From the NCBI GenBank assembly GCA_004010935.1, contig CP026511.1, forward strand, positions 4,712,001 to 4,776,000: DNA of 64,000 bases, in the 5' to 3' direction. This DNA is from Pseudomonadaceae bacterium SI-3 (GTDB lineage Bacteria; Pseudomonadota; Gammaproteobacteria; Pseudomonadales; Pseudomonadaceae). Both the position numbers and the translations under genes were made by a program. This document shows, in pieces, positions 22,897 to 62,972 of the stretch (the first letter of the stretch is position 1; the number at the start of each line of letters is the position of its first letter). The notes under the pieces are model-generated. The model was given only the letters and a program-made list of their open reading frames with translations, searched no databases and was not told where the DNA came from.

Positions 22897-22910
22897 TTAC
22901 AGAAACGTAA
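22897..22910. promoter_or_regulatory. Metal-regulator box upstream of copR
   Basis: TTACAGAAACGTAA matches the recurring palindrome TTACA-N4-TGTAA with one mismatch. It is centred about 67 bases upstream of the copR start. Confidence 0.6.
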
Positions 22911-23125
22911 TGCTCGCATCATCTGTCTGACAGCTTCTAGCGTTAACGTCTACACCAGCAGTTGCCCCCACACTCTGCTTTTTGGCCATTTCCATGCTCC
23001 TTTGGCCTATTGGCGCCTTGATGGCGCCTTTTTTTTTGCATGCTGGAACAGAACCTATTTACAGCAGGTAAAGATGCCATACACGCAACCTGCGCTTTCG
23101 CTTGTACTCACTTCTTCTGCGTTAC

Positions 23126-23139
23126 TGACGAAACCGTAA
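23126..23139. promoter_or_regulatory. Degenerate metal-regulator box upstream of the ptrA-like gene
   Basis: TGACGAAACCGTAA matches TTACA-N4-TGTAA with three mismatches. It lies 115 bases before the ATG of the PtrA-like protein gene, in the copR-ptrA divergent region. Confidence 0.4.
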
Positions 23140-23253
23140 TGTTTCGATCAGGTTTCTGACAGGGACACTCGGTTAGCTTACACACAAGCCCAAGCCTCTG
23201 TTAATGGAGCTGCGCTGGGTCTCCCGTATCTTCGTAAACAAAGGTAAAAAGTC

Positions 23254-23463
23254 ATGAAACTTTTCAAATCCCTTTCTGTACTGCTCGCCATCGCAGCAAG
23301 CTCTTCCTATGCAATGGCAGAAGGTGGTGGTGATCGTACCTTTGCTCGTATGGAGCAGGCTCGCCAAGTAGCGATCGCTAGTTATCAGGCTGACCAGAAC
23401 GACCAAGCCCAGGAGCTAGCCGCGAAGGAAACTTCAGCGAAGCACGCTCATGCTAATTGCTGA
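23254..23463 (+). CDS. ptrA: PtrA-like small periplasmic copper-response protein
   Basis: A 69-residue protein. A signal peptide (MKLFKSLSVLLAIAASSSYA) is followed by MAEGGGDRTFARMEQAR, the N-terminal signature of the PtrA family. The short tail has His residues and a terminal Cys (HAHANC). In P. aeruginosa, ptrA lies beside copRS and is strongly copper-induced; it has been linked to type III secretion control, although a periplasmic copper-tolerance role fits better with its signal peptide. Two more proteins with the same AE-G-x-R signature are encoded at 36,038 and 52,704 in this window. Confidence 0.75.
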   Translation: MKLFKSLSVLLAIAASSSYAMAEGGGDRTFARMEQARQVAIASYQADQNDQAQELAAKETSAKHAHANC

Positions 23464-24067
23464 AGCGAAACCGTACGCAGATTTGACTGCGCAGCTCTTA
23501 ACTGTGGCAGCTTCTGCGATGTTATAGCTGCCACGGTGCTGGTATAGGCAGAAATGTTTGTAGAACCGGCGAAGCCGTTATAGCTACTTCGAACCATGGC
23601 TCGTCAAAAACCTAACCTAATATCTTCGCACCGAGCAGACCAAGTTTATACTGGCTAGTAGGTTACAACCCTCTTGAGCGGCTAAGATTTGATAATTATC
23701 CAATCTCATGAGGCCTTCTAGACTGCCCGCAAAGCCTGGAAAGATCCGCTGAAAAGCAGTGAATGAGCAACAAACTGCTAATGAACTGCTAGATTATGGC
23801 CGGACCTTTTTAGCGGCTCTTATCCAGCCCGCGGTTTAAGTAAAGCCAGCTAAAGTGACCGGAACTCTGATCGCAGACGTTTTCGGGGCGCTTTAAACTT
23901 ACAAAAATGTAATCACGCGTTTTTCTTCGGCATGCCATATTTACGAATAATGGCGAGTCGCTTGATAAGACAGACCGTGCGCGAGCTTCTAAGATCGATT
24001 AACGCTGGCAACACCAACCCTAAAGGCTGGTTTCGGCTTGGCTCCTTAGCTTGATTGGAACGTACAC
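23464..24067. other. Spacer holding the copA promoter region
   Basis: About 600 bases without a gene. It contains a 9-base-arm hairpin (23,504-23,534, no U-tract), a possible end signal for the ptrA-like message, and the metal box at 23,899. The rest is A/T-richer than neighbouring genes. No small open frame with a ribosome site convinced me. Confidence 0.4.
23899..23912. promoter_or_regulatory. Metal-regulator box upstream of copA
   Basis: TTACAAAAATGTAA is a perfect match to TTACA-N4-TGTAA, followed by TC as in several other copies. It is 155 bases upstream of the copA ATG and probably drives the copA-copB-cytochrome operon through CopR. Confidence 0.7.
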
Positions 24068-25921
24068 ATGCAACGTAAAACCTCTAGGCGAACCTTTGTT
24101 AAAGGCTTGACTGCCGCAGGCCTCCTTGGCGGTCTTGGCTTGTGGCGAGCTCCGGTCTGGGCAGTGAGTAGCCCAGGCCAGCCCAGCGTACTAACCGGCA
24201 CGGAGTTCGATCTGCTGATTGGGGAGACGCCGGTCAATATCACCGGCGCGGCCCGGACAGCGATGACTATCAATGGGACCATCCCAGGGCCGCTTCTACG
24301 TTGGCGTGAAGGGGATACCGTCACGCTGCGCGTCAGGAATAAGCTGAGCGAAGATACATCGATTCACTGGCACGGCATGATCCTGCCGGCCAACATGGAT
24401 GGCGTGCCTGGATTGAGCTTCCACGGCATCGCTCCCGATGGCATGTATGTATATAAGTTTCAGGTTAAACAAAACGGTACTTATTGGTACCACAGTCATT
24501 CAGGCCTACAAGAGCAGGTTGGTGTTTATGGCCCGTTGGTCATTGATGCTAAGGATCCCGAACCGTTCAGCTATGACCGCGACTATGTCGTCATGCTGAC
24601 CGATTGGACCGATGAGGATCCCGCTCGAATCCTTTCTAAGCTCAAGAAGCAGTCAGATTATTACAACTTCCACAAGCGCACCGTCGGAGACTTCATTAAC
24701 GACGTGAGCGAAGACGGCTGGGCCGCTACGATTGCGAATCGGAAAATGTGGGCTCAGATGAAGATGAGTCCCACCGACCTCGCCGACGTAAGCGGTTACA
24801 CCTATACCTATCTAATGAACGGCCAAGCACCAGACGGGAACTGGACCGGTATCTTTAAGCCCGGCGAGAAGCTTCGCCTGCGGTTCATCAATGGCTCGGC
24901 CATGAGCTATTTCGATGTCCGCATTCCAGGGCTGAAGATGACTGTAGTCGCAGCCGATGGCCAATACGTCAACCCAGTTAGCGTCGATGAATTCCGCATT
25001 GCCACGGCAGAAACCTACGATGTGATTGTGGAGCCTGCTACCAAGGAGGCTTACACGATCTTCGCTCAATCGATGGACCGCACAGGGTACGCCCGAGGCA
25101 CGCTGGCGATTGCCGAAGGGCTAAGCGCTGCTGTTCCAAAAACCGATCCTCGACCAATAATCACTATGGACGACATGGGAATGGATCACGGCAGCATGGG
25201 CGGTATGGCGGGCATGGACCATGGCGAGGGCATGCAGGGCGACATGAGTGGGATGGACCATAGCAACATGTCCAGCATGAACCACGGTGACATGCAAGGG
25301 ATGGGCGGCATGGGCGCAATGGCCGGAATGGATCACAGCAAAATGGCTGGGATGTCTGGGATGGACCACTCTGCAATGGCCGGGGTGAGCGCAGCTATGC
25401 AATCGCACCCGCCCTCTGAGTCCAATAACCCGCTGGTGGACATGCAGACCATGAGCCCAACGCATAGGCTGAATGATCCAGGTATTGGCTTACGAGACAA
25501 CGGCCGCCGAGTCCTGACCTATGGCGACTTGAGAAGCACTTTCCCGGATCCGGACGGCCGTGAGCCAAGTCGAACAATAGAACTCCATCTCACCGGCCAC
25601 ATGGAGAAGTTCTCCTGGTCATTTGACGGCATAGAGTTCTCTGATTCGGAACCCCTGCGGCTCAAATATGGAGAGCGGGTACGCATCACTTTGGTCAACG
25701 ACACCATGATGACCCATCCAATTCACCTCCACGGTATGTGGAGTGATCTTGAAGATGAGAATGGGCAGTTCATGGTTCGCAAGCACACGATCGACATGCC
25801 TCCAGGTTCGAAGCGCAGCTACCGCGTAACAGCTGATGCGCTCGGTCGCTGGGCCTATCACTGTCACCTACTGCTTCACATGGAAATGGGCATGTTTCGT
25901 GAAGTCCGAGTGGATGAATAA
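24068..25921 (+). CDS. copA: Multicopper oxidase CopA (periplasmic copper resistance)
   Basis: A 617-residue Tat-exported laccase-like oxidase. The twin-arginine signal is SRRTFVKGLTAAG. Copper-ligand motifs are SIHWHGMILP and WYHSHSGLQE in the first cupredoxin domain, and HPIHLHGMWSD and HCHLLLHMEMGMF at the C-terminus, so the type 1, 2 and 3 sites are complete. Between about residues 367 and 445 lies a Met/His-rich insert built from MDHS, MGGM and MNHGDM units, which binds Cu(I). It oxidises Cu(I) to the less toxic Cu(II). It is the first gene of an operon with a Met/His-rich peptide, copB and a cytochrome c. Confidence 0.95.
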   Translation: MQRKTSRRTFVKGLTAAGLLGGLGLWRAPVWAVSSPGQPSVLTGTEFDLLIGETPVNITGAARTAMTINGTIPGPLLRWREGDTVTLRVRNKLSEDTSIHWHGMILPANMDGVPGLSFHGIAPDGMYVYKFQVKQNGTYWYHSHSGLQEQVGVYGPLVIDAKDPEPFSYDRDYVVMLTDWTDEDPARILSKLKKQSDYYNFHKRTVGDFINDVSEDGWAATIANRKMWAQMKMSPTDLADVSGYTYTYLMNGQAPDGNWTGIFKPGEKLRLRFINGSAMSYFDVRIPGLKMTVVAADGQYVNPVSVDEFRIATAETYDVIVEPATKEAYTIFAQSMDRTGYARGTLAIAEGLSAAVPKTDPRPIITMDDMGMDHGSMGGMAGMDHGEGMQGDMSGMDHSNMSSMNHGDMQGMGGMGAMAGMDHSKMAGMSGMDHSAMAGVSAAMQSHPPSESNNPLVDMQTMSPTHRLNDPGIGLRDNGRRVLTYGDLRSTFPDPDGREPSRTIELHLTGHMEKFSWSFDGIEFSDSEPLRLKYGERVRITLVNDTMMTHPIHLHGMWSDLEDENGQFMVRKHTIDMPPGSKRSYRVTADALGRWAYHCHLLLHMEMGMFREVRVDE

Positions 25922-28043: not shown

Positions 28044-28521
28044 CATCCGGTATATGTGTGCCTATGCGGTTCTGATCGAGGCTCTAAGAAAGGCGGTTCA
28101 GCAAGCAGAGGATCGGCCCTAGGCCATCCTAGTCGACGCAACGGTACCGGAGGGCTTTGCAATTGCTTCCTTCCTAAAAGTTAGGCCGCAAGGCCAGTAA
28201 CTTACCTAGTTAAGCGGCTTGCGCTCCGGCCGTTCCCCAACGAATACTCCCAGTCGTGGCGACAGGAAGCTCCCTCATTTTCAACTCAATCATCTCGAAC
28301 AGACTAGCGAAGCCGTACAGGCAATCTGACGGCCACATCGCCACCAACTGCGCCCGCAGATCCCCGGTGCGGTTGGACTTACCTTACAACATTGTAATGA
28401 GGTTTTTCGAAACGGGCTCGGTAGGAGCGTGTCGTAATTCAGTGTCTGCTAACAGGCTGTTGAGCCATATCGGCCAGTAAGCAAACGACGAAATACAACT
28501 ATCGAACCCTGGAGAACGTAA
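28044..28521. other. Spacer with promoter of the Csp gene
   Basis: About 480 bases without a supported gene between the cytochrome and the copper-storage protein gene. The right part holds a perfect metal box at 28,384. The left part shows short open frames with no start signals. Confidence 0.4.
28384..28397. promoter_or_regulatory. Metal-regulator box upstream of the csp gene
   Basis: TTACAACATTGTAA is a perfect TTACA-N4-TGTAA palindrome, 124 bases upstream of the copper-storage protein start. It implies separate copper control of this gene. Confidence 0.7.
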
Positions 28522-28851
28522 ATGACAAACTCAATGTTCGCATCCTGTATCCAAGCTTGTTCGAACTGTGCCCTAGTGTGCGAAATGTGCGCCTCTGCTT
28601 GCCTACGCGAGGATGATGTAAAAATGATGGCTCGCTGCATCGAGCTTGACCGCGACTGCGCGGACATTTGCAGGTTGGCTGCCACACTGATGAGCCGCGA
28701 AAGTGAATATGCTAAGGAGTTCTGCGCCCTTTGCGCCAAGATCTGCCGTGCATGCGGAGAGGAATGCGCGAAGCATGAAATGGATCATTGCCAAGAGTGT
28801 GCGAAGGCGTGCATGAACTGCGCTGAGGAATGTGAGCGAATGGCAGGATAA
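28522..28851 (+). CDS. csp: Four-helix-bundle copper-storage protein (Csp-type)
   Basis: A 109-residue protein with 19 cysteines spaced along amphipathic helices (FASCIQACSNCALVCEMCAS; CAKICRACGEECAKHEMDHC; ECAKACMNCAEECERMAG). This is the signature of Csp proteins, whose thiol-lined four-helix bundle holds many Cu(I) ions. No signal peptide is visible (MTNSMFASC), so it is the cytosolic Csp3-type rather than the exported Csp1-type. It has its own box-bearing promoter and probably serves as cytoplasmic Cu(I) reserve behind the P-type ATPase. Confidence 0.88.
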   Translation: MTNSMFASCIQACSNCALVCEMCASACLREDDVKMMARCIELDRDCADICRLAATLMSRESEYAKEFCALCAKICRACGEECAKHEMDHCQECAKACMNCAEECERMAG

Positions 28852-29092: not shown

Positions 29093-29416
29093 ATGAGAAA
29101 GACTACGACCTACTCCCCCGAAGTCCGTGAACGTGCTGTGCGCATGGTTCTGGAGCACCTGAACGACTACCCCTCCGAGTGGGCGGCCATTGAGGCCATC
29201 GCCCCGAAGATTGGTTGTGCAGCGCAAACCCTGCATGGCTGGATTCGTCGCCACCAGACTGATGCCGGTCAGCGTCCTGGGCCGACCACCGAAGAGCGCG
29301 AACGCATCAAAGCCCTGGAGCGTGAGAACCGTGAGTTGCGCAAAGCCAACGAGATTCTGCGCCTGGCCAGTGCGTATTTTGCCCAGGCGGAGCTCGACCG
29401 CCGCACCAAGTCCTGA
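29093..29416 (+). CDS. IS3-family transposase OrfA
   Basis: A 107-residue DNA-binding protein. The helix-turn-helix region ([40 protein letters not shown]) is followed by a leucine-zipper-like helix ([20 protein letters not shown]) for multimerisation. It starts 50 bases inside the left terminal repeat. The downstream OrfB frame is -1 relative to it, so the active transposase would be made by programmed frameshifting near its end. Confidence 0.88.
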
Positions 29417-30315
29417 GGGCATTTGTCGATCAGCATCGTGACCGTCTCGGGGTCGAGTCGATCTGCCGTGTCTTGCAGATCGCCCCGTCCGGTTACCGCC
29501 GGCACGCGGCGCAGCAGCGCAACCCGGAACTGCGCTGTTGCCGTGCTCGGCGCGATGACGCGTTGATCTTGGAAATCCAGCGGGTGTGGAACACCAACAT
29601 GCAGTGCTATGGCGCGGTGAAGGTCTGGAAGCAGCTCCGGCGAGAAGGCATCGAGACGGCCAGATGCACGGTGGAACGGTTGATGCGTCGGGCTGGATTG
29701 CAGGGCATTAGGCGCGGCCAGGTCGTGCGGACAACGGTGGCCGGCGACAAGTCGCTCTGCCCGCTGGATCGCGTACAGCGCCAGTTCCATGCCGATCGCC
29801 CGAACCAGTTGTGGGTGTCGGACTTCACGTATGTGTCGACCTGGCAGGGCTGGCTGTATGTGGCCTTCGTGATTGACGTGTTTGCGCGGCGGATCGTCGG
29901 CTGGCGAGTCAGTACCAGCATGAAGACCGAGTTCGTGCTGGATGCCCTGGAGCAAGCCCTGTATGCCCGTCAGCCACATCGCACGGGTGGCCTGATCCAC
30001 CACAGCGACCGTGGCAGCCAGTACGTCTCGATCCGCTACACCGAGCGACTGGCAGAGGCCGGCATTGAGCCCTCAGTTGGCAGCAAGGGCGATAGCTACG
30101 ACAACGCCTTGGCCGAAACAATCAACGGGCTGTACAAGGCCGAGCTGATTTAACGTCAATCATGGAAGAGCCGCGAAGCTGTTGAGATGGCGACTTTGAA
30201 ATGGGTGCACTGGTACAACCACCAGCGGTTGCTGAGTTCAATCGGCTATATCCCGCCTGCGGAGGCTGAGGCAAACTTCCACCAGCAACAAGCAGGTCAG
30301 GCCATGGCGGCCTGA
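29413..30315 (+). pseudogene. IS3-family transposase OrfB, interrupted by a premature stop
   Basis: An rve-type integrase domain with all three catalytic acids: Asp in QLWVSDFTYVST, Asp in LIHHSDRGSQYVS and Glu in DNALAETINGLYKAELI. A TAA at 30,151-30,153 then interrupts the frame. Past it the same frame continues for 53 codons (WKSREAVEMATLKWVHWYNH; SIGYIPPAEAEANFHQQQAG) to the normal family end at 30,315. The stop replaces one residue in a segment that reads ELI-x-RQSWKSRE, most simply a Tyr codon changed to TAA. The product would lack its C-terminal 50-odd residues and may be inactive. Confidence 0.75.
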
Positions 30316-30545: not shown

Positions 30546-31271
30546 ATGGTTTTGCGAATATTCCCATCGCAGCGATTGGCTTTGCTGCTAGTACTGCTCG
30601 CCGTTCTGCAACTCAGTGGCTGCGCCGTTTCCCCGCGCCTGAAACCAAGCGACCAGCCAAGCGTTGCTCGCAAAACCTTTGTCATCACTGGTGCCTCCAG
30701 TGGCTTCGGCCGCGGCGTGGCGCTCAAGCTTGCCGCTCTGCAAGGCGACGTGGTGCTAGCGGCCCGCCGGACCGACGTGCTCGAAGAACTGGCCGCGCAG
30801 ATACGCATGGCTGGAGGATCGGCACTGGTGGTGACCACCGACGTGAGCAACCCGAACGAGATGCAGGACTTGGCACGAGCCGCCATCGAGCGTTTCGGCA
30901 GGATCGACGTTTGGATTAACAACGCTGCGGTCGGAGCGCTGGGTCGTTTCGAGGACGTTCCCGTCGAGGACCATGCGCGGATCGTGGATGTCAATCTTAA
31001 GGGCATGATCTATGGCAGCCACGCAGCCATGCGCCAGTTCAGAGCTCAAGGCTTCGGCACGCTTGTCAACGTGGGCTCAGTCGAGAGCGAGATACCGCTG
31101 GCTTATCATGCCTCCTCCGCAGCGACCAAAGGTGGCGTCATAAATCTCGGCGCGGCAATCGCTGAGGAGATTCGCCTGAGCGGTAGCGAGACCATCAATG
31201 TCGCCACCGTCATGCCCTGGGCTGTGGACACACCGTTTCTGGGAATCAATTTGCCCTTTCTAGTTCATTGA
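30546..31271 (+). pseudogene. Truncated lipoprotein-type SDR oxidoreductase
   Basis: The product has a lipobox (LAVLQLSGCAVS), the Rossmann motif TGASSGFGRG and the NNAAVG motif of short-chain dehydrogenases. The catalytic YxxxK reads HASSAATKGG, with Ser where Tyr should be. The frame agrees with the family up to PWAVDTPF (about 31,237), then runs eight foreign residues to TGA, lacking the usual ~70-residue C-terminus. Its 3' end overlaps the convergent DUF305 gene. It was probably cut when the metal-island DNA joined here, and it is not expected to be active. Confidence 0.7.
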
Positions 31272-31701
31272 TCAGGGACTTCATTTCTGCGATTTCTCGG
31301 CGCTGAGCGTCGATGATTTCGTCAGCTAACTTGCGGACGCGAGGATCTGAAATCTGAGCTCGTTCACTTGTTAGGATTGCTATGGAATGGTGGGGGATCA
31401 TGGCCTTCATGTAGTCCGTGTCGTCTACCGTCGCTTGCCCACGTACAAGCCATAGTGCAATGGTAAAAGCTACTGCACTTCCTGCCAATATCGCTAGGTT
31501 TATTGACTTACGCTTATACATGTTGAGCATGAATGCGAGCATGACTACTGCCATTACCGCGCCCATCACTAATGCCATCCAAGCGCGAGTCTCGCTCCAA
31601 AAAACATGCTCGAACGAGTAAGTATTTAAGTACATCACGCCATACATAATGATCGTAGACGTGGCTACCATCGCTGCAAAGCGCCAGTAAGACATTTGCA
31701 T
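31246..31701 (-). CDS. DUF305 membrane-anchored protein, copper-associated
   Basis: A 151-residue protein with three N-terminal membrane helices (e.g. MVATSTIIMYGVMYLNTYSF; AWMALVMGAVMAVVMLAFML), then a DUF305 domain: DTDYMKAMIPHHSIAILTSE and DEIIDAQRREIAEMKSLINE. DUF305 ferritin-like domains with the MIPHH motif often occur in metal-resistance loci. A perfect metal box lies 136 bases upstream (31,837), so it belongs to the copper regulon. Its 3' end replaces the missing end of the SDR gene. Confidence 0.8.
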   Translation of the reverse strand: MQMSYWRFAAMVATSTIIMYGVMYLNTYSFEHVFWSETRAWMALVMGAVMAVVMLAFMLNMYKRKSINLAILAGSAVAFTIALWLVRGQATVDDTDYMKAMIPHHSIAILTSERAQISDPRVRKLADEIIDAQRREIAEMKSLINELERAN

Positions 31702-32245
31702 AGTTAGACCTCTTTAATGATTGCTGCTGGATCGGCGACTCAACGTGTTCGCGCAGCCCTGCTTAGAAGTGGCTTTCGAATGCTCTCCTAAAAACGGACA
31801 AGCCGAAGATGATGAGGTTTCGATTTTTTGAGAAGCTTACAAAAATGTAATCATCGACCGCTTTAAGACCGGCTTAAAGCGCTGCCAGCGCTGTACTACG
31901 CGTAATGTTCCCCTGAACTAATCAATCGCTAATAGCTTATAAGCAGACAATACCAACGTCGCGCTATGGACCACTGCGCGAAAGAGCGGGCCCACTAAGA
32001 TGGCCTTCAAGCCTTGAGACCCGACTACTCGGCTTAGCAAGCCCAAAGAGTTATCGTGAGCAATAGAACACTCGGAGAGAACAATTCAGCACCCAGCATA
32101 TGCCACGTTCTTGTCGAGTGTGACCGCAGGGTTAGTATTCGCACATTAGATGTGTGGCGGCTAAGACGGCTGGGTGTAGCTGGCTCCAAAACTGAGCGGC
32201 GAGGTTATTCTGTCCCAAGCCGCGCCTTTCGTGGCGCGCGGGACC
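31702..32245. other. Spacer with a metal box and a hairpin
   Basis: About 540 bases between the DUF305 gene and the ATP-grasp-like gene (both minus strand). It holds the box at 31,837 and, near 32,221-32,238, a hairpin with arms CGCGCC/GGCGCG just downstream of the ATP-grasp stop, which may be its terminator. An open plus-strand frame at 32,056-32,418 overlaps the real gene and looks spurious. Confidence 0.4.
31837..31850. promoter_or_regulatory. Metal-regulator box upstream of the DUF305 gene
   Basis: TTACAAAAATGTAA is identical to the copA box, including the following TC. It is 136 bases from the DUF305 start on the minus strand. Confidence 0.65.
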
Positions 32246-50626: not shown

Positions 50627-50630
50627 CACT

Positions 50631-53026: not shown

Positions 53027-53059
53027 TTTCCATAACTTGCCCGCAACATCGCTACCAGC

Positions 53060-53315: not shown

Positions 53316-53517
53316 GGGCAGGTCAGTCGCTGTTTGCATAATCCTTCGTCAGCTCACCGTGGGTGAAAGCCATCAGGTCAAGGACGCGTATGTAGCGAAA
53401 GTCATACGCACTAAGCGCTGAGCAATTTTTTATTTACCGCTTAGATGCATCAGACTGCGCCACAAAGGCTGTGCTGTCCGCTGCGCCGCTAATGAAACTG
53501 CGCTCCGATAATTAACG

Positions 53518-53551
53518 CGCCCCGTTCTCGCTAGCTAGCAAGAACGGGGCG
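53518..53551 (-). terminator. Terminator of the czc operon
   Basis: Perfect 11-base arms CGCCCCGTTCT and AGAACGGGGCG with a 12-base loop, 22 bases past the czcA stop. On the minus strand the stem is followed by TTAATTAT, a weak U-tract. Confidence 0.65.
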
Positions 53552-53572
53552 TTGTGTGCCGCCATCCAATCT

Positions 53573-56500
53573 CTAGCTTGTTCTGTCAGCGGCCAACGCG
53601 ATTTCTTGCTCCTCCAATTCGTCTTCGCGTCGATGAGCCATCTGGTAGAGCAACGGCAAAACTAATAGCGTTAGCACCGTTGAGGAGAGAATCCCCCCGA
53701 TCACCACCGTCGCAAGGGGACGTTGTACCTCTGCACCGGTACCCACATTCAAGGCCATTGGAACGAACCCGAGTGAAGCCACTAAGGCTGTCATCAATAC
53801 CGGTCGTAGCCGGGTAAGGGCACCTTCGCGGATCGCAGTGTCCAGAGGTAAACCTTGCTCCCGTAGGCTACGGATGAAGGAGATCATTACCAGGCCATTT
53901 AGAACGGCGACGCCTGACAGAGCAATAAAGCCAACACCTGCTGAAATGGACAATGGGATATCTCTGAGCCACAGCGCAACAATGCCTCCGGTGAGCGCAA
54001 ATGGAATCCCTGTAAAGACCAACAAACCGTCTTTGACATTGTTGAACATCATGAAAAGCAGAATGAAGACCAGGAGCAGCGCCACGGGGACGACAATCTG
54101 CAGCCGCTTCGTTGCCGATTCAAGCTGCTCAAAGGTACCGCCCCAGTCGATCCAATAACCTGCCGGGATATCTACCTGGGCCTGGATTTTCTGTTCTGCC
54201 TCAGATACGAATGATCCAATGTCACGACCACGGACGTTTGCACTGACGACAATTCGCCGTTTCCCTTCTTCTCTACTGATCTGATTCGGACCGGGGGCCA
54301 AATCCAGGGTGGCCACCTCGCCGAGGGGGATATAACTTATGGTGCTGTTTAATTCCCTTGGAAGGGCAATTGGAAGCCGCTCAATTGCGGCGAGATCGCT
54401 GCGTATCTCGTCCGGTAAACGAACCACGATATCGAAACGCCGATCTCCTTGAAACAAGGTGCCTGCCTCTCGGCCACCGATAGCTACTGCAACCGCTTGC
54501 TGGACGGTATCTAGACTCAGGCCGTATCGTGCGATCTGATCGCGATCGATATCAATCGTGAGCATGGGAAGGCCAGTCGTCTGCTCGACCGTAACCTCTG
54601 AAGCGCCTGGTACTTGTCCTAGCACCTCGGATACTTCCGCCGCCGTGCTGTTAAGAACGTCCATGTCATCACCATAGATTTTCACGGCTACCGCGGCACG
54701 AACTCCGGAAATCAGCTCGTTGAAACGCAGCTGAATCGGCTGGGAAAACTCGTAGTTATTGCCCGGCAACTCAGCGGCGGATGCTTGCACCTCGCTTAAG
54801 AGCTGATTACGCGACTTGCCTGGATCCGGCCACTGTTCTTGTGGCTTCAGCATGACGTACCCGTCAGAGATATTTGGAGGCATAGCATCCGATGCCACTT
54901 CCGCAGTGCCAGTTCGCGCAAATATGCGTTCAATCTCCGGAAACTCATCCATAAGCTTTCGCTCCAGCTGCTGCTGCATCTCTACAGACTGACTAAGACT
55001 GGTAGCTGGTACACGAAGGGCTTGGATAGCGAAGTCTCCCTCGTTGAGGCTAGGCACGAATTCACTGCCCATACGTGACCCTACGAGGCCAGAAAGTATG
55101 ACTACAACTACCGCAAAGGTGAGCACTGCTGGCTTGTTGGCCATTACCGCATCGAGCGCAGGTGCGTAGGCCCGTTTAGCATTGCGGATTAGAAAGTTTT
55201 CCTTTTCCGTAACCCGCTTACCGATAAAGAGCGCAACGGCCGCCGGGACGAACGTCACCGAAAGGATTATCGCCCCGAATAGCGCTGTCACTACGGTAAA
55301 CGCCATGGGCGTGAACATCTTACCTTCTACCCCTGTAAGGGCGAATATCGGCAGATACACGATCATAATGATCAGCTGCCCATACAATAGAGGCCGACGC
55401 ACTTCCTTTGCCGCAGCGAATACTTCATGAAGCCGTTCGGACAGTGTTAATGCCCGTCCGTGATGGGACTGAGCGTGTGCAAGTCGACGCACGCAGTTCT
55501 CAACAATCACCACGGCTCCATCGATAATGATGCCGAAATCCAATGCGCCTAGGCTCATCAGGTTGGCGCTGACCTGATTGGCTACCATGCCGGTGAACGT
55601 GAAGAGCATAGAAAGCGGTATCACAAGCGCGGTTAGGATCGCCGCCCGGATATTGCCTAAGAAGAGAAAAAGTATAACCACAACAAGAATGGCACCCTCA
55701 GTGAGGTTCTTCTTAACGGTGGATATAGCTTTGTCTACGAGTACAGTTCGATCGTAGACAGTAATTGCCTTTACGCCTTCCGGAAGCGAAAGGTTTATCT
55801 CTTTCATCTTGTCGTCGACAGCCCTTGAAACTACTCGGCTATTTTCACCGATAAGCATGAAGGCCGTACCTAGTACCACTTCGCGGCCATTCTCGGTGGC
55901 TGCGCCAGTGCGGAGCTCCTTTCCAACCTCGACCGTCGCAACGTCGCGGATACGCACTGGGGTACCGTCAACGTTGCTAATAAGGGTATCGCGGATGTCC
56001 TCCACAGACTGCATTTGTCCTGGAGCGCGAACAAGATACTGCTCGCCGCGCTTTTCAATATATCCGGCACCTAGATTGTTATTGTTTTGCTCAACCGCCT
56101 CGATCAAATCTTGTAGTGTTAGTCCAAACGACCGCAAAGTGTCTGGGTTGGGGGCGATCTGATATTCCTTTGCATATCCTCCGATCGTATTGATCTCAGT
56201 AACACCAGGTACATTTCGGACTTGCGGTTTGATGATCCAATCTTGAATCTCACGCAAGTCAGCAGGGGTATACGGCGTACCGTCCGATTTGGTGGCACCT
56301 TCCTCAGCTTCAACCGTCCAAAAATAGATTTCGCCAAGCCCAGTGGAAATAGGGCCAAGTGTTGGAGTGACGCCATCTGGGAGCTGATCTTTGGCCCCTC
56401 CCAGGCGCTCGTTCACAAGTTGGCGGGCAAAATAGATGTCAGTGCCTTCCTCAAAAATAACTGTGATCTGAGAAAGTCCATATCGAGACAAGGATCGTGT

Positions 56501-56743
56501 CTGCTCGAGCTTGGGCAGCCCAGCCATTACCGTCTCGAGCGGGTAGGTAATACGCTGCTCCACTTCCAGCGGGGAATAACCTGGCGCCGCAGTGTTGATT
56601 TGCACCTGTACGTTGGTGATATCCGGGACAGCATCGATAGGCAGCTTTTGGTAGCTGTAAGCTCCTAACGCTGCCATGCCAAGCACGGCTAGCATAACCA
56701 ACCAGCGATGCTCGATAGAAAAACGAATGATACGTTCGAACAC
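53573..56743 (-). CDS. czcA: Cobalt-zinc-cadmium RND efflux pump CzcA
   Basis: A 1056-residue heavy-metal RND pump. It opens with MFERIIRFSIEHRWLVMLAV. The proton-relay helix has the divalent-cation signature LDFGIIIDGAVVIVENCVRR (DFG...D...E), which separates it from CusA. Twelve membrane helices and two large periplasmic loops are present, and the length is normal. It drives Zn, Cd and Co out of the periplasm through CzcB and CzcC. Its start is 18 bases downstream of the czcB stop, and a terminator follows its own stop. Codon use is less GC-biased than in the core genes. Confidence 0.95.
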   Translation of the reverse strand: MFERIIRFSIEHRWLVMLAVLGMAALGAYSYQKLPIDAVPDITNVQVQINTAAPGYSPLEVEQRITYPLETVMAGLPKLEQTRSLSRYGLSQITVIFEEGTDIYFARQLVNERLGGAKDQLPDGVTPTLGPISTGLGEIYFWTVEAEEGATKSDGTPYTPADLREIQDWIIKPQVRNVPGVTEINTIGGYAKEYQIAPNPDTLRSFGLTLQDLIEAVEQNNNNLGAGYIEKRGEQYLVRAPGQMQSVEDIRDTLISNVDGTPVRIRDVATVEVGKELRTGAATENGREVVLGTAFMLIGENSRVVSRAVDDKMKEINLSLPEGVKAITVYDRTVLVDKAISTVKKNLTEGAILVVVILFLFLGNIRAAILTALVIPLSMLFTFTGMVANQVSANLMSLGALDFGIIIDGAVVIVENCVRRLAHAQSHHGRALTLSERLHEVFAAAKEVRRPLLYGQLIIMIVYLPIFALTGVEGKMFTPMAFTVVTALFGAIILSVTFVPAAVALFIGKRVTEKENFLIRNAKRAYAPALDAVMANKPAVLTFAVVVVILSGLVGSRMGSEFVPSLNEGDFAIQALRVPATSLSQSVEMQQQLERKLMDEFPEIERIFARTGTAEVASDAMPPNISDGYVMLKPQEQWPDPGKSRNQLLSEVQASAAELPGNNYEFSQPIQLRFNELISGVRAAVAVKIYGDDMDVLNSTAAEVSEVLGQVPGASEVTVEQTTGLPMLTIDIDRDQIARYGLSLDTVQQAVAVAIGGREAGTLFQGDRRFDIVVRLPDEIRSDLAAIERLPIALPRELNSTISYIPLGEVATLDLAPGPNQISREEGKRRIVVSANVRGRDIGSFVSEAEQKIQAQVDIPAGYWIDWGGTFEQLESATKRLQIVVPVALLLVFILLFMMFNNVKDGLLVFTGIPFALTGGIVALWLRDIPLSISAGVGFIALSGVAVLNGLVMISFIRSLREQGLPLDTAIREGALTRLRPVLMTALVASLGFVPMALNVGTGAEVQRPLATVVIGGILSSTVLTLLVLPLLYQMAHRREDELEEQEIALAADRTS

Positions 56744-56760
56744 GATTCTATAACTCCGTA

Positions 56761-58107
56761 TCAGTGAGCATGCGAGGCGCTGGCTTTGCCAAGCTCGGAC
56801 TTGATGATGAAGCTGTTATCCAAGGCATAGCGCGCTCCGGGCTGGAGGCCTTCCTTGATTTCGACCGCGTCACTATCGCTGCGGCCACTCACGATTGGCT
56901 GAGCAGCAAAGCCATGGTCGGTCCGTACAAACACCACCGGCTTTTCTTCCAATGTGTGGATCGCATCAGGACTTACTGCGACTGGCACGGATGCTTCGCC
57001 AGCGCCTACCTGCACTTTGACGAACAGGCCGGGGCGCCAAACCCCTTCAGGGTTGGGAAGTGTGACCCGGGCGGTAGCGGCGCGGCTTTGCTGACCAACA
57101 AGTGAGCCGACATAAGAAACGGTTCCATTGGCACTGGACTCGAATGCTGTGGCCTCGATAACGGCATTGCTGCCTACTCGTACCGCGCTGAGTGCATTGG
57201 CAGGAACGCTGATATCTGCCCACACGGTGGAGAGATCGGAAATGATGAATATCTGGTCATCGGTATTGACTGACTCACCGAGCGTGATGTCCTTCTCAAC
57301 GATCATCCCATCGAACGGCGCCCTGAGTTCGTAGCGGCTCAATGCGTCTGGCTTGCCAGCATCACTGCCAAGCGCTTGTAGCTGTGCGTTTGCATTCGCA
57401 ACAGTCAGCTCTGCTTCCCGTAAAGCCTGTTGTGCCTGTAAATAATCCTGTTCCGCAGAAATACGCTCTTCCCATAGCTCCTTTTCGCGTCGATAGGTTT
57501 TTTGAGCCAATGCAAGACGTTTTTGCGCCGCGTAGAACTCGCTTCTACGTTCCGACAGGTCTGTACTCGCGATCACAGCAAGTACTTGCCCCTGTTTCAC
57601 CTGTTCGCCCAAATCGACTTTGACCGCTTCAACGACACCTGAGAGACGAGGCACAACTTGCGCTGTGCGGTCTTGGTTGAATGTAATTTCGCCAGGCAGC
57701 TCAATTGCGCTTTTTATCTTTGCGGGCTGAGCAGTTGCCAGTGAGATGCCGGCGGCTAGGATTTGTGTCTCTGAGAGTTCTACCTCTGCTGTTTCAGTAT
57801 GCTCCGCTCCCTCGGGCTCATCTTCATGCTCATCTTTCTCTGCCGCACCGACCTCGTGATCGCTATCGGCGCCTCCTTCATCATGGCCATGATCTCCTTC
57901 GGCTTCTGCATCCTCATCCGAATGCCCTTCATCCTCATGCTCCGATTCGTCACCATGCTCGCTATGTGCGTCGCCCGCATCGGGCACAGCTGGACTACTG
58001 CGAAGAAGCAATCCGCCAAGCATAAGTGCCACGCTTAATATGACGACGATCCAAAAAATCTGCTTCTTGTGACCAGCCAAGGAAGATGTATTCGATTTAC
58101 TTTTCAT
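56761..58107 (-). CDS. czcB: CzcB periplasmic adaptor with His/Asp/Glu-rich N-terminal region
   Basis: A 448-residue membrane-fusion protein. An N-terminal helix (IFWIVVILSVALMLGGLLLR) anchors it. Residues ~40-110 are extremely rich in His, Asp and Glu (HSEHGDESEHEDEGHSDEDA; HEVGAAEKDEHEDEPEGAEH), a metal-collecting segment typical of CzcB. Lipoyl, hairpin and barrel domains follow (VVEAVKVDLGEQVKQGQVLA; DQIFIISDLSTVWADISVPA). It ends HAH. It bridges CzcA and CzcC. It lies eight bases after the czcC stop. Confidence 0.93.
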   Translation of the reverse strand: MKSKSNTSSLAGHKKQIFWIVVILSVALMLGGLLLRSSPAVPDAGDAHSEHGDESEHEDEGHSDEDAEAEGDHGHDEGGADSDHEVGAAEKDEHEDEPEGAEHTETAEVELSETQILAAGISLATAQPAKIKSAIELPGEITFNQDRTAQVVPRLSGVVEAVKVDLGEQVKQGQVLAVIASTDLSERRSEFYAAQKRLALAQKTYRREKELWEERISAEQDYLQAQQALREAELTVANANAQLQALGSDAGKPDALSRYELRAPFDGMIVEKDITLGESVNTDDQIFIISDLSTVWADISVPANALSAVRVGSNAVIEATAFESSANGTVSYVGSLVGQQSRAATARVTLPNPEGVWRPGLFVKVQVGAGEASVPVAVSPDAIHTLEEKPVVFVRTDHGFAAQPIVSGRSDSDAVEIKEGLQPGARYALDNSFIIKSELGKASASHAH

Positions 58108-58115
58108 ATGGATTC

Positions 58116-59423
58116 CTATGGCTGAGTGGCCGAGGTGATAACGGCCGACCCATCTCCGACAATTCGCGAGATTTCTGCCGCCGCCTGGTTAGCTTGTGAT
58201 AGCGCAGACAGGTACTGAGATCGGGCTTGGAAAAGCGTGCGTTGAGCATCCAGTACGTCAAGGAACGTGAATTTTCCAAGTTCGAACCCCTTGCTGGCAG
58301 CTTCATAAGCGCTTTGGGCACTGGGGAGCATATCGTTGCGCAACAGTTCAAACTGCTGGCGAGCAGTGCGCAGCCGCATGTGCGCTTGGGAAAGTTCGCT
58401 TTTCAGGCGTATATGGACGGCGTTGAGCTCGTCCTGCGCCTGGTAGGCCCGTTCCTGCGCTGCTCCGATGTTGCCTTGGTTTCGATCAAACAACGGCAGG
58501 GGCATCGAGATACTCACCAATCCCAGCGTGCCGTTATATTCATCTGAGCGTTGGGCACCTACGCTAACCGTCACGTTAGAAAAGCGATTCGTCCTTTCCA
58601 GCTTTAACGCAGCCCGACGTCTTTCAGCCTCCCGACGCGCGCGGGTTAGTTGGGCGGAATCGTTCAAACGGCTATAAAGCTCAGCTAGCTCGGGAAGAGG
58701 AGGCACTGCCTCTGCCGGCTCTTTTACTCGCTCAAAGCGTGGCTGTGGATTTCCCCAGTTGGCCGCCAGCCGAGTGCGCGCAGCTTCGAGTTCAGCTGTG
58801 GCCTGGGCAAGCTCTACTTGCACTCCAGTAGCCGCAACCCGCGCCCGGGTTTCCTCTACGGGAGAAACCATGCCGGCCCTCACACGTCGATTGGCCACGT
58901 TCACTGCTTGCTTCGCAAGCTTTGAAGCAGCCTGAGCGAGGTCCAGCCGTTCTTGAGCAGTAAGCACATCGTAGTACGCGCCCATCACTGCCCCCCTCAG
59001 TCGAGCTTGGGCGTCCTGTAGGTCAGCAGCTGCTACGTCCAAGGCTCGTTGCGCCGCCTCAATACGAGCCGAACGTTTACCACCCAGCTCTATTTCTTGG
59101 CTCAGTTCAAGCGTGGTCTCCGGGGCATCGCCCCGGATTCCCTCCTGGCTAGCGGACAATATTGGATTCGGACGTGCTCCGGCTTGGCTAATTAATGCGC
59201 GAGAAGCAGCCAGCTCACGTCTTGCAACAGCCAGTTCAGGGCTTGCAGAGCTAGCGAGTTCCAAGGCGCGTAGAAAGCTTATGGATTCGACAGACTCAAC
59301 GGGGAATGTATTTGACACACCGACAGGTAAGGTCTGTGTGAAGGTCGGCAACTCTAAGGGTTGCGCAAAGGCGAGATTGCACGACAACGTCGTCAACCCC
59401 AGCGAGAAAAGAGCTTTTCGCAC
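58116..59423 (-). CDS. czcC: CzcC outer membrane efflux channel (TolC family)
   Basis: A 435-residue exported protein. The signal peptide MRKALFSLGLTTLSCNLAFA precedes paired coiled-coil repeats: ALELASSASPELAVARRELA and RARREAERRRAALKLERTNR. The second repeat also has PLPLFDRNQGNIGAAQERAY and ends with SKGFELGKFTFLDVLDAQRT, the conserved TolC-family turn. It is the outer membrane exit of the CzcCBA pump. It is preceded by czcI and followed eight bases later by czcB. Confidence 0.92.
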   Translation of the reverse strand: MRKALFSLGLTTLSCNLAFAQPLELPTFTQTLPVGVSNTFPVESVESISFLRALELASSASPELAVARRELAASRALISQAGARPNPILSASQEGIRGDAPETTLELSQEIELGGKRSARIEAAQRALDVAAADLQDAQARLRGAVMGAYYDVLTAQERLDLAQAASKLAKQAVNVANRRVRAGMVSPVEETRARVAATGVQVELAQATAELEAARTRLAANWGNPQPRFERVKEPAEAVPPLPELAELYSRLNDSAQLTRARREAERRRAALKLERTNRFSNVTVSVGAQRSDEYNGTLGLVSISMPLPLFDRNQGNIGAAQERAYQAQDELNAVHIRLKSELSQAHMRLRTARQQFELLRNDMLPSAQSAYEAASKGFELGKFTFLDVLDAQRTLFQARSQYLSALSQANQAAAEISRIVGDGSAVITSATQP

Positions 59424-59481
59424 CGAAATCTCCTAAAAAAAGGGAAGGTTCGGTGAGACGTCAGATACAGATAAATGGCGC

Positions 59482-59862
59482 TTACTGGTTACTTTGGCGT
59501 CCCACCGGTTTTGCACCGATGCGCCAATTAGGTTTCTCAGGACGCCCCGCTTCAGCCGATGCGTAGCTAGCAGAAGGAAACGGTTTCAAGCTCATTGATA
59601 ATACCGAACCAGGACAGATCCCTTTCGTTATAAGCGGCTTGATATGGTCGCCATGAAAGACACAGTCTCCATCCAGACTGATTTTTTTTGCGGCTTTTGA
59701 CGATCCTTCCTCGTCAGTACCCAGAGACTCGTGCGGATGTTCGTGATGTCCAAGATGATTTGCTGCCGAACCATCCTCATGACTGCAGCTCGTGCTAACA
59801 ACTGCCCATGATGATTGCAATGGGAACAAGGCTAGCAACATCAGCAAAACTATTTTTCTCAT
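59482..59862 (-). CDS. czcI: CzcI-like periplasmic regulator/accessory protein
   Basis: A 126-residue exported protein. The signal peptide (MRKIVLLMLLALFPLQSSWA) leads to a His-rich segment (SCSHEDGSAANHLGHHEHPH). Cys residues (DGDCVFHGDHIKP; KGICPGS) follow, then a basic Pro-rich tail. It matches CzcI, the small first gene of many czcICBA operons, presumed to sense or buffer periplasmic zinc. ATG 59862 gives the typical start; a TTG nine bases upstream has a better-placed AGGAAG and cannot be excluded. An IS lies 97 bases upstream of its start. Confidence 0.75.
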   Translation of the reverse strand: MRKIVLLMLLALFPLQSSWAVVSTSCSHEDGSAANHLGHHEHPHESLGTDEEGSSKAAKKISLDGDCVFHGDHIKPLITKGICPGSVLSMSLKPFPSASYASAEAGRPEKPNWRIGAKPVGRQSNQ

Positions 59863-59967
59863 CCAAGGCAAAACGATGACTTCCTGGTTTAGATGTCGAA
59901 TCCAATCATAAGAACTACCCCCGCCAAGACGCGAAACACATGCGCCTCTACTGCGATAGTGTAGTGG

Positions 59968-61130
<1,163 letters not shown>

Positions 61131-61332
61131 TTAGACACCTCTTTCTATGGCGAGCATTCTCGCCCTAAATAGGTGTCCGGGTTTAGTAGACCACTACATA
61201 GTGATTCGCCCTGAATTTAGTAGACAAATACACGAAAGCGTTTTTATCAGCCTTGCCAAGCCGGCGAGATAGCTGATGGCTATGGGGTGGTGACTTTAAA
61301 TAAGTGTGGATAACGACCTGGTGACCGCAACA

Positions 61333-61346
61333 TTACAAATCTGTAA
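61333..61346. promoter_or_regulatory. Metal-regulator box upstream of the porin gene
   Basis: TTACAAATCTGTAA, a perfect TTACA-N4-TGTAA followed by TC, 158 bases before the porin ATG. It is in position for CzcR or CopR to act on oprD or on the now distant czc operon. Confidence 0.65.
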
Positions 61347-61377
61347 TCGAAGGAGTGCGCGATTGGGCTTCCTCAGA

Positions 61378-61391
61378 TTACAAAATAGTCA
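61378..61391. promoter_or_regulatory. Partial second box near the porin promoter
   Basis: TTACAAAATAGTCA shares the left half of the box (TTACA) but has AGTCA in place of TGTAA. It is 45 bases, about four helical turns, from the box at 61,333. Confidence 0.4.
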
Positions 61392-61504
61392 TTTGCCGCT
61401 AATCCTGCCGTCATCTCTAGGGGAAGAACATGGCCAAGCGCTAAAAACAAAAAGGCGAAAGGCGTCATTCGAGCACTGACCTGCCGTACATAAGGAGCAT
61501 CATC

Positions 61505-62824
61505 ATGAGCAAAAAGGCCGTTTTTTCGCTGACAGCCCTTTCACTGGCATTGGGCAGCGCCCCGGTCTTTGCCCAATCGGAAACAGCCGAGGGCTTCATC
61601 GAAGGCAGCACGCTATCGCTGATAAATCGCAACTTCTATTTCAATCGGGATTTTCGCGACGGTGAGAGTGCCGCCGGCAATGGCTACTCCGAGGAATGGG
61701 CCCACGGATTGATGGCCTTCTTCGAGTCCGGATATACCCAAGGCTCGGTAGGGATTGGCTTCGACGCTTTCGCCATGCTCGGCCTCAAGCTCGACTCCGG
61801 TTCGGGGCGCTCCGGTGTGGGCGGCAGCATCGACCTGCTTCCCCACGACAGCGCTGGCGATCCTGAGGATGACTTCACACGGGTGGGGGGCGCGGTGAAA
61901 GCACGCTTGCTGGACACCGAGATCAAGGCCGGCGATGTATTTCCCACTACACCTGTCGTGCACTTCGGCGACTCTCGGCTGCTGCCGGAGTCTTTCAAGG
62001 GTGTCACCGTTGTGAACAACTCGCTGGACGACCTCACCCTTCAGGGAGGCCGCTTGCACGCGATGAGCCAGCCCAACACCAGTAACATGAACGAAGACTT
62101 CGTCACCTTCTACGGCGGGGGCGTAGACGCGCCTTGGCTCGGCTACGCAGGCGGTGACTACAGCGTGAATGAAAATATCAGTCTTAGCCTGTACACCAGC
62201 CGCCTCAAAGATGCCTGGAACCAGCATTACTTCGGTGCGTCGGCCACCTATCCGCTCTCCGATATCGTCGCGCTGCTGGCCAGCTTCAACTATTACAAGG
62301 CAACCGACGAAGGCCGTGAGTTGCTGGGCGAGTTCAACAACAACATCTGGAGCTCCAGCCTGGGTGTCGCCTTCGGCGCGCACACTGTCACGGCGTCGTA
62401 TCAGCGAAACAACGGTAACAACGACTTTGACTACTTGCGCCAGGCGGACTCGATCTACCTGAACAACTCCATTCAGTACAGTGATTTCAACTCACCTAAA
62501 GAGCAGTCCTGGATGCTGCGCTACGACCTGAACATGGCGGAGTACGGCATACCCGGGCTTACTTTCATGACCCGCTACGCCCGCGGTTGGGGCGCCGATT
62601 ACAGCAACGCGAACGAGGTGTACATGCGCCAAGACGATAACGGTGCGCCGCTGACGGGACAGAACCGCTGGGAACGCGACGTCGAAGCCCGCTACGTTGT
62701 ACAGACTGGCTCTCTCAAGGATTTGTCTCTGCGGGTGCGCCAGGCTACCACGCGGGCGACTGCTTTCGAGTCCGACCTCGATGAGGTCCGATTCATCGCC
62801 GAGTACCCTCTCTCGATCTTGTGA
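61505..62824 (+). CDS. oprD: OprD-family outer membrane porin
   Basis: A 439-residue specific porin. The signal peptide ends at PVFA, then QSETAEGFIEGSTLSLINRN opens the first strand with the family's L-x-x-RN-x-YF pattern (LINRNFYFNRDF). Later strands include AFAMLGLKLDSGSGRSGVGG and MLRYDLNMAEYGIPGLTFMT, and it ends with the short strand RFIAEYPLSIL. OprD-type porins take up amino acids or aromatic acids. In P. aeruginosa, zinc and copper repress oprD through CzcR and CopR; the gene's position next to czcRS with boxes upstream fits that. Which substrate subfamily is uncertain. Confidence 0.88.
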   Translation: MSKKAVFSLTALSLALGSAPVFAQSETAEGFIEGSTLSLINRNFYFNRDFRDGESAAGNGYSEEWAHGLMAFFESGYTQGSVGIGFDAFAMLGLKLDSGSGRSGVGGSIDLLPHDSAGDPEDDFTRVGGAVKARLLDTEIKAGDVFPTTPVVHFGDSRLLPESFKGVTVVNNSLDDLTLQGGRLHAMSQPNTSNMNEDFVTFYGGGVDAPWLGYAGGDYSVNENISLSLYTSRLKDAWNQHYFGASATYPLSDIVALLASFNYYKATDEGRELLGEFNNNIWSSSLGVAFGAHTVTASYQRNNGNNDFDYLRQADSIYLNNSIQYSDFNSPKEQSWMLRYDLNMAEYGIPGLTFMTRYARGWGADYSNANEVYMRQDDNGAPLTGQNRWERDVEARYVVQTGSLKDLSLRVRQATTRATAFESDLDEVRFIAEYPLSIL

Positions 62825-62886
62825 AACACCATGAGCAACACCACATCTTCTTTAGTTTTGCTCCCTTGGTTTGAAGATGTGTTTCA

Positions 62887-62910
62887 GGCGCCCATCAGGG
62901 CGCCTTTTTT
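62887..62910 (+). terminator. Rho-independent terminator after the porin gene
   Basis: Stem GGCGCCC/GGGCGCC around ATCA, then TTTTTT. It lies 63 bases after the porin stop and is a strong intrinsic terminator. Confidence 0.85.
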
Positions 62911-62958
62911 CGTTTGGTGCACCCGCTCGCGCTGCGGGTCAACCAAATGACCGGTAGA

Positions 62959-62972
62959 TTACAAATTCGCAA
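62959..62972. promoter_or_regulatory. Degenerate metal-regulator box upstream of czcR
   Basis: TTACAAATTCGCAA keeps the left half of the TTACA-N4-TGTAA box and three of five bases of the right half. It is 172 bases before the czcR ATG. Confidence 0.4.

Follow-up and report, generated by a model that had tools for sequence, protein, structure and literature searches.

A short inverted repeat, TTACA-N4-TGTAA, is dispersed between the metal genes of a 64,000-nucleotide stretch of the Pseudomonadaceae bacterium SI-3 chromosome (CP026511.1, one contig of 4,838,607 bp; the stretch, here called the window, covers positions 4712001 to 4776000). This box is very probably the operator of response regulators of the CopR/CusR/CzcR type (family TIGR01387), and CopR and CzcR would be expected to bind it in response to metals and may share sites. 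Judging from papers that cite earlier work on Pseudomonas stutzeri, such a code has been described before for this group, and the window adds a further example of it. What may be novel is a predicted RNA arm of the same regulon, which is computed. The regulators, the sensor kinase gene, and the box sites are listed below, with scores in bits from the cross-genus matrix described later.

22156 to 22836, minus strand: copR, TIGR01387 response regulator
34020 to 35441, minus strand: copS, heavy-metal sensor kinase (TIGR01386), about 12 kb from copR
63145 to 63819, plus strand: czcR, TIGR01387 response regulator
22897 to 22910, plus strand: box with one mismatch, TTACAGAAACGTAA, 24.5 bits, between copR (minus) and a predicted RNA (plus)
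23126 to 23139, plus strand: weak box TGACGAAACCGTAA, 13.6 bits, upstream of a small open reading frame (ORF) at 23254 to 23463
23899 to 23912, plus strand: perfect box, 30.7 bits, upstream of the multicopper oxidase gene copA (24068 to 25921)
28384 to 28397, plus strand: perfect box upstream of a gene for a Csp-like Cys-rich protein (28522 to 28851)
31837 to 31850, plus strand: perfect box upstream of a DUF305 gene (31246 to 31701, minus)
36427 to 36440, plus strand: perfect box heading a minus-strand run that ends in copS and an ATP-grasp-like gene
45775 to 45788, minus strand: perfect box heading a P-type ATPase gene (43279 to 45642)
52461 to 52474, plus strand: box with one mismatch, TGACAAAATTGTAA, 34.1 bits, the top score of the window, between a czcD-type CDF gene (51307 to 52227, minus) and a small ORF (52605 to 52934, plus; no family)
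52581 to 52594, plus strand: box with one mismatch, TTTCAATAATGTAA, 19.6 bits, upstream of the same small ORF
61333 to 61346, no strand assigned: perfect box between oprD (61505 to 62824, plus) and the czc run (minus)
61378 to 61391, plus strand: second box upstream of oprD, TTACAAAATAGTCA, 24.5 bits
62959 to 62972, minus strand: weak box TTACAAATTCGCAA, 18.4 bits, upstream of czcR

All six perfect copies that a first-pass annotation had picked out by eye were found where it placed them (23899, 28384, 31837, 36427, 45775, and 61333). Its one-mismatch copies at 22897 and 52461 were recovered as well, together with a site missing from its list at 52581. The window holds nine matches to the pattern at one mismatch or fewer, compared to a mean of 0.51 and a maximum of 3 in 100 shuffles that keep dinucleotide composition. 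Scored over the whole genome, as the first-pass annotation had proposed, the perfect pattern occurs seven times, six of them in the window and the seventh where the czc/oprD segment recurs, inverted, elsewhere in the genome, while the same pattern reversed, used as the control throughout, occurs nowhere; many equally good matches inside unrelated genes did not turn up. The binomial probability of at least six of seven sites falling in a 37,448-bp span is 1.5e-12, a generous figure because the positions of the sites defined that span. Genome-wide counts at one mismatch were discarded as evidence, since the control was equally frequent (13 further sites versus 22, or 20 versus 22 with the perfect ones included) and this class is mostly noise.

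The pattern was also counted in 97 genomes, including 56 of the genus of the window and 36 of other families. Perfect copies numbered 0 to 12 per genus genome and 244 in total, compared to 0 to 2 and 15 for the control, so that sequence alone yields a clean metal regulon in the genus. Outside the family, in 36 genomes, the pattern was no more frequent than its control (78 versus 81).

The regulators that would read this box were identified with the curated TIGR01387 cut-off of 279.2 bits, which copR (339.9 bits) and czcR (341.0 bits) both exceed. Five genes of the genome do so: these two, a second czcR, and genes at 1281882 and 3204023. A box lies upstream of all five, and their products share a nearly identical segment, DTNV(I/V)(E/D)VA(I/V)RRLR, which we take to be the recognition helix known from the OmpR family. 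Across the 56 genus genomes, the number of perfect boxes tracks the number of TIGR01387 regulators (Spearman correlation, 0.76). These data fit one code read by several paralogues.

Upstream regions of other copR genes were examined as well. Of 592 relatives of CopR from named genomes, the 80 best were used, and the 250 bp upstream of copR contained a box with one mismatch or fewer at 65 of these loci (73 with two or fewer), whereas resampled sequence gave 0.27 loci on average. The best upstream match had no mismatch at 23 loci, one at 42, two at 8, and three or more at 7. No box with one mismatch or fewer was present in the first 250 bp of the copR gene itself (0 of 80 loci) or 3 kb upstream (0 of 69 loci). 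A copS-like gene directly follows copR at 62 or more of the 80 loci by the threshold used, a lower bound since, among the other loci listed, 7 gave a partial match to copS immediately after copR. This adjacency is missing in the four closest relatives, and in the window each of the two genes stands behind its own box. The CopR protein is identical to that of a metagenome-assembled genome labelled Pseudomonas sp. and shares 95 to 96% identity with those of Stutzerimonas stutzeri and S. kunmingensis strains.

A weight matrix built from the copR loci of other genera (52 unique sites out of 67 sites in 74 loci, after removal of six Stutzerimonas loci) ranked the 11 sites of the first-pass annotation plus 52581 within the top 13 positions of the window, and the remaining position, 52576, overlaps 52581. 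Eleven positions in the window reached 16 bits or more, whereas a background of 340 kb, drawn from 17 stretches elsewhere in the same genome, had none and a best score of 15.5. Two of the three copies that had been called weaker, at 61378 (24.5 bits) and 62959 (18.4 bits), exceed this background; the third, at 23126 (13.6 bits), does not by its box alone, and it was accepted because its 16 columns and its -10 element are invariant among relatives and it carries a full downstream extension, as described below. A further candidate at 17547 scored at background level (13.3 bits) and was rejected. The matrix contains a conserved T followed by C or G after TGTAA, in agreement with the earlier remark that many copies end in TC.

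The boxes lie outside all nameable genes, as the first-pass annotation had stated, though some overlap short unsupported ORFs. Distances to start codons are 60 to 233 bp, close to the 60 to 230 bases claimed; the exception is 52581, which lies 10 bp from the listed start of its ORF and about 110 bp from a likelier start at 52704. The sites also conform to ATKACA-N4-TGTMAT, the inverted repeat of CopR/CusR/AgrR-type operators, with the outermost left A missing at several of them. The proposal of a CopR/CzcR-type code is supported by the clustering of sites, the sites upstream of copR, the box at all five TIGR01387 regulators, and this published operator form.

Gene names in the window rest on family matches for copR, copS, copA, the P-type ATPase, cusA, the CDF gene, czcR, copB, cusF, oprD, and czcA, while cusB, cusC, czcB, czcC, and czcI are named on matches under the specific cut-off. 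Family searches matched nothing for three small ORFs that had been called PtrA-like, including the one at 23254. The Csp-like protein scored 38.7 bits against TIGR04401 (cut-off, 100) and matches DUF326; the DUF305 protein matches PF03713 and scored 46.2 bits as CopM (cut-off, 90). Behind box 36427 stand, in order, a small ORF (36038 to 36364, no family), a DUF2933-like gene, another small ORF, copS, and the ATP-grasp-like gene. The transcript from box 45775 possibly extends through the cusCBAF run down to 36496. The box thereby ties otherwise unnamed genes to a likely metal response, namely, the Csp-like and DUF305 genes, the exported-looking small ORFs, and the ATP-grasp-like gene after copS.

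Spacing between box and -10 element has preferred values across species. When positions 20 to 44 nt beyond the box were searched, the best -10 element on the copR side lay exactly 28 nt away in 32 of 62 unique sequences, and on the opposite side it lay exactly 34 nt away in 42 of 63. The cross-species consensus is TTACAaantTGTAATct-n4-GTCAG...ctGnCAG-n11-tA, in which the GTCAG and CTGnCAG elements of the non-copR side stand in register with TGTAAT at 11-bp steps. A model of this downstream extension was trained on 61 sequences without Stutzerimonas, with P values taken from 226,236 background positions. In the window, an extension with a reported P value of 0.0001 or less was present rightward of 22897 (0.0001, toward the plus strand), from 23126 (score, 18.3; P reported as 0.0000) and 52581 (0.0001) toward their small ORFs, from 36427 toward the copS run on the minus strand (score, 11.5), from 45775 toward the P-type ATPase gene, and from 61333 toward czc. 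Box 45775 has the best full composite of the window, with a score of 50.5. Weaker extensions run from 61378 toward oprD (P = 0.0033) and rightward from 52461 (P = 0.0098).

Individual promoters illustrate the arrangement. Box 23126 is followed by phased half-sites GATCAG and TGACAG and a -10 element TAGCTT at 34 nt, box 52581 by its extension and CAAAAT at 34 nt, and box 61333 on the czc side by TAAAGT at 34 nt. On the side of box 22897 away from copR, TAACGT lies at 33 nt. Box 62959 has TAAAGT at 28 nt toward czcR, like the copR side elsewhere (P = 0.004).

Close relatives show that these elements are better conserved than their surroundings. Footprint alignments were reduced to unique sequences with the window counted in. 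Among 13 copR-region sequences (the others 79 to 99.8% identical, with only loci aligning over at least 350 bp used), boxes 22897 and 23126 are invariant in 16 of 16 columns and the -10 element of 23126 in 6 of 6, compared to 102 of 181 columns in the middle of the region. Among 12 czc/oprD-region sequences (the window, its own second copy, and others 87 to 99.7% identical), the invariant columns are 16 of 16 for box 61333, 6 of 6 for the czc -10 element, 12 of 14 for box 61378, and 13 of 30 for the spacer between the boxes. These data are consistent with a mechanism in which a regulator, activated by metal and acting as a dimer, would bind TTACA-N4-TGTAAT some 50 bp ahead of the transcription start, probably also occupy half-sites 11 bp apart between box and -10 at some promoters, and recruit RNA polymerase.

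Several known systems are comparable. The closest is the CopR1/CopR2/CzcR regulon of P. stutzeri RCH2 (Garber 2018, Mol Microbiol 107:704, known here through citing papers), which agrees in species group, regulators, similar motifs, and overlapping metal targets. It concerns another strain, the likeness of motifs comes from the descriptions in citing papers and not from the letters, and those descriptions do not mention an RNA element. In Cupriavidus metallidurans CH34, one motif about 50 to 60 bp upstream of nearly all mapped cop1 starts, copR1 included, is reported as the proposed CopR1 site (PMC7563307); starts were mapped there, whereas starts in the window are predicted. The same report describes an antisense RNA of about 700 nt within copL that is raised by copper and preceded by a similar motif (PMC7563307), unlike the short intergenic RNA predicted here. 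The footprinted AgrR box of C. metallidurans shares the 6-4-6 inverted repeat ATKACANNNNTGTMAT, the in-phase direct half-sites, and the class II activator position; AgrR is a silver/copper regulator of another genus, and the available part of that report describes no sharing with a zinc regulator (PMC7380067).

The boxes of Escherichia coli CusR/HprR (CATTACAAAATTGTAATG; PMC9302797) and Legionella LciR (ATTACAAnnTTGTAAT; PMC6989116) are reported with the same palindrome. Two short elements between the LciR box and its -10 element abolish or nearly abolish copper induction when mutated (PMC6989116), and the phased GTCAG/CTGnCAG elements described here match these two elements and the direct repeats of AgrR. 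LciR is reported to have a single site in its genome (PMC6989116), in contrast to about a dozen within one 40-kb segment here. In P. paraeruginosa, three metal regulators (CusR, CopR, and CzcR) meet at one palindrome, and acquired copper genes are wired into core regulators; that study concerns one intergenic site, whose left half is printed as ATTCAT and not ATTACA (PMC11195947).

Some observations weigh against assigning the box to TIGR01387 regulators as a common operator. Five genus genomes have two to three regulators and no perfect box (G016, G018, G025, G038, and G048), and one has a box but no regulator at the threshold used (G031). Sites for the matrix were selected by likeness to the pattern (two mismatches or fewer), so the matrix tests place and not form. 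In the model scan of the window, the downstream extension was missing toward copA, csp, and DUF305 and from 61333 toward oprD. Finally, CzcR of P. aeruginosa is reported with a different left half-site, GAAAC-n6-GTAAT, so identical box use by CopR and CzcR is not guaranteed.

This leads to a variant of the operator explanation, and not its opposite, in which CopR and CzcR each use a private subset of near-identical boxes and spacing or flanks decide between them. We consider such private regulons possible but on balance rather improbable. The full extension and 34-nt spacing at only some boxes would agree with them, as would the different outcomes of CusR, CopR, and CzcR at the same P. paraeruginosa site and the description of target sharing in P. 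stutzeri as limited, both from a 2024 paper (PMC11195947). The near-identical recognition helices argue the other way, and so does a review stating that CzcR, CopR1, and CopR2 of P. stutzeri share almost all targets through very similar sites (PMC10393844).

Inverted repeats of such size are used by many regulator families, and an unrelated regulator could happen to act on metal genes. No support for this reading was found, and it is very improbable given the box before copR itself at 65 of 80 loci, the box at every TIGR01387 gene of the genome, and the form identical to the published CusR/HprR/LciR/AgrR operators. It is scarcely credible that the boxes have no regulatory role and merely come along with a dispersed repeat or with an acquired island of higher AT content. 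The boxed segment is indeed GC-poorer than its left flank (about 0.50 to 0.60 versus 0.59 to 0.65 in 2-kb steps), and parts of it are found on plasmids, with 194 of 72,556 plasmid records matching 22100 to 46000 (no record reaches 80% coverage at a single place, and the best match spans 67% with 91.6% identity). Against this stand the excess over dinucleotide-keeping shuffles (9 versus 0.51), the reversed pattern without a perfect match genome-wide, the conservation of boxes above their flanks, and the preferred -10 spacing across species.

Of further interest is the predicted RNA arm. The stronger side of box 22897 points away from copR into noncoding DNA, where a conserved block with a terminator at its end comes next. 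Box 22897 is inferred to drive a small RNA whose exposed loop is of the anti-Shine-Dalgarno type, and two similar hairpins lie at the 3' ends of genes behind other boxes.

22957 to 23037, plus strand: predicted 81-nt small RNA, its start inferred from box spacing, with stem-loop 1, stem-loop 2 (loop UUUCCAUGCUCCUU), and the terminator GGCGCC-TTGAT-GGCGCC-T9
52964 to 53026, plus strand: CUCCUU-loop hairpin and terminator that end the small gene at 52605, 28.2 bits, little above a 27.3-bit match elsewhere
62841 to 62910, plus strand: hairpin with UUGCUCCCUU loop and terminator 3' of oprD, 106.6 bits

The segment 22956 to 23042 folds at -26.4 kcal/mol (z score, -2.8) into two stem-loops and the terminator. 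A covariance model was built from eight copies (the window, one S. stutzeri, three loci of other species, and three genus genomes), which match it by construction. It found 50 strong places (51 bits or more) in 40 of the 56 genus genomes, and the next matches scored 27 bits. Coordinates compared by hand place 48 of the 50 within about 250 bp of a TIGR01387 regulator; another lies less than 1 kb from one, and the last has no regulator among the matches listed and adjoins a match to a copR start region. Of the 41 genomes that have at least two perfect boxes, 40 carry a strong copy, compared to none of the 15 with fewer, a co-occurrence that is partly linkage because the RNA element sits in the same island as the boxes. 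Three of 76 other copR loci searched (L041, L042, and L106) carry the element, there behind a small gene after the copR box. A second copy, facing the opposite way near the same copR, is present in genome G032 (L194:1268-1331, plus strand) with one compensated stem pair.

Hairpins with a CTCC[CT]T loop and a terminator number three in the window (the RNA and the 3' ends of the small gene at 52605 and of oprD), compared to none in the 340-kb background with its 107 terminators; six rearranged or complementary motifs gave 0 to 1 in the window and 0 to 2 in the background. The loops are mostly GCUCC(C/U)UU and lie beside an intrinsic terminator. The model of the oprD hairpin scored 79 to 107 bits in 17 of 24 genus genomes and had no match at an E value of 0.01 or less in 12 genomes of other families. 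In the oprD-type alignment, 8 of 17 pairs are changed on both sides, with a covariation score reached by none of 500 shuffles, a pair count reached by 5, and a number of pair types reached by 194; the fitting of this alignment to the model limits its weight, as do a possible register shift in the small-gene rows and the absence of the loop from two rows. A related hairpin with a different but still paired stem ends the cusF gene in P. fluorescens H24 (L044:12643-12710) and P. migulae (L046:16590-16657), with cusF identity tested by PF11604 in P. fluorescens H24. The oprD hairpin was duplicated along with the second czc/oprD copy.

These features may form an RNA arm of the CopR/CzcR regulon in Stutzerimonas-type bacteria, made up of the stand-alone copR-linked RNA and the related 3' hairpins on box-controlled transcripts (oprD and the small gene, with cusF in the two other Pseudomonas species). 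Their exposed CUCC(C/U)U loops would be complementary to AARGGAGC ribosome-binding sites, and in this way Cu or Zn stress would also shut off the translation of several mRNAs, that of oprD possibly among them. We give this proposal a nearly even chance, falling a little short of it. A rival and likewise tentative reading, with a sizeable share of the probability, is that the element is a strong terminator that stops transcription from box 22897 before the next gene and that the similar 3' ends are ordinary terminators.

The rival reading draws on the canonical intrinsic terminator at the end of the element and on the slight covariation of the copR-linked stem (1 of 11 pairs, with 37 of 500 shuffles as good). 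It also draws on the orthologous oprD and small-gene 3' ends without a CUCC loop in genomes G007 and G005 (L251 and L258), and on other Pseudomonas, where the loop-plus-terminator form was clear in 0 of 11 viewed regions near copAB, 3 to 4 kb upstream of copR. A plain terminator is harder to reconcile with the conservation, in 16 of 16 distinct aligned copies, of the GCTCC[CT]T loop and of four inner pairs of the stem, one pair via a double change (5 of 15 have lost the outer A-U pair), or with the lack of any such loop-plus-terminator among the 107 background terminators. Genome G015, which has seven perfect boxes, is the sole genome with two or more and no strong copy, an observation that counts against the RNA arm.

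As a target of the RNA, oprD was set aside: its start region ranked first among the 28 taken from the island (-21.3 kcal/mol), a value that 27 of 273 ORF starts in the background equalled, which makes it not significant, with some start codons guessed and the 9-bp pairing to the oprD Shine-Dalgarno sequence judged by eye. The Rfam family suhB/mmgR (RF00519) gave a weak full-length match with nearly the same bounds as the predicted RNA (22957 to 23043) and was likewise rejected, at 25.5 bits compared to a gathering score of 41; 19 homologous loci had no RF00519 match at an E value of 1 or less, and the Rfam search of the RNA elements returned no family at threshold. Judging by titles and abstract openings, none of the papers listed in searches for a CopR- or copper-linked RNA describes the predicted RNA, but copper-linked noncoding RNAs are reported in C. 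metallidurans (PMC7563307).

A real RNA of this kind would extend the action of CopR and CzcR from transcription to translation. Repression of oprD via CopR and CzcR in P. aeruginosa is reported to need Hfq, by a mechanism still open in 2016 (PMC5083921). ErsA and Sr0161 are Hfq-dependent RNAs that repress oprD, with no metal link mentioned in the part of the source available (PMC7264166). A metal-induced RNA would be a possible further link, though in another species. In P. stutzeri, oprD is reported to go the opposite way, being activated by CzcR (PMC10393844).

The segment with czcD, czcCBA, oprD, and czcR (47808 to 64000) is duplicated in inverted orientation within 2325000 to 2344999 of the genome, with 98.7% and 94.5% identity in two stretches. 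An insertion element, absent from the second copy, separates the promoter of box 61333 from the czcI-like/czcCBA run and lies on the same strand as that run.

59962 to 61199, minus strand: IS3-family element (NF033516, 288.9 bits; cut-off, 160)

Other features of the neighborhood include the ATP-grasp-like ORF, which has 588 codons (32246 to 34012, minus strand), directly follows copS, and scored 20.6 bits against PF14403 (cut-off, 32); a relative also lies beside copS in locus L080. A gene for an MvaT-type xenogeneic silencer (21623 to 21985, plus strand; PF22055) adjoins copR at the edge of the GC-poor segment. At 29371 to 29487 (plus strand), an ALIL frameshift pseudoknot (RF01497, 110.3 bits) marks the junction of two IS3 transposase ORFs, and at 46184 to 46627 (plus strand), a chromate transporter fragment (147 amino acids, PF02417) is preceded by a short ChrB C-terminal ORF.

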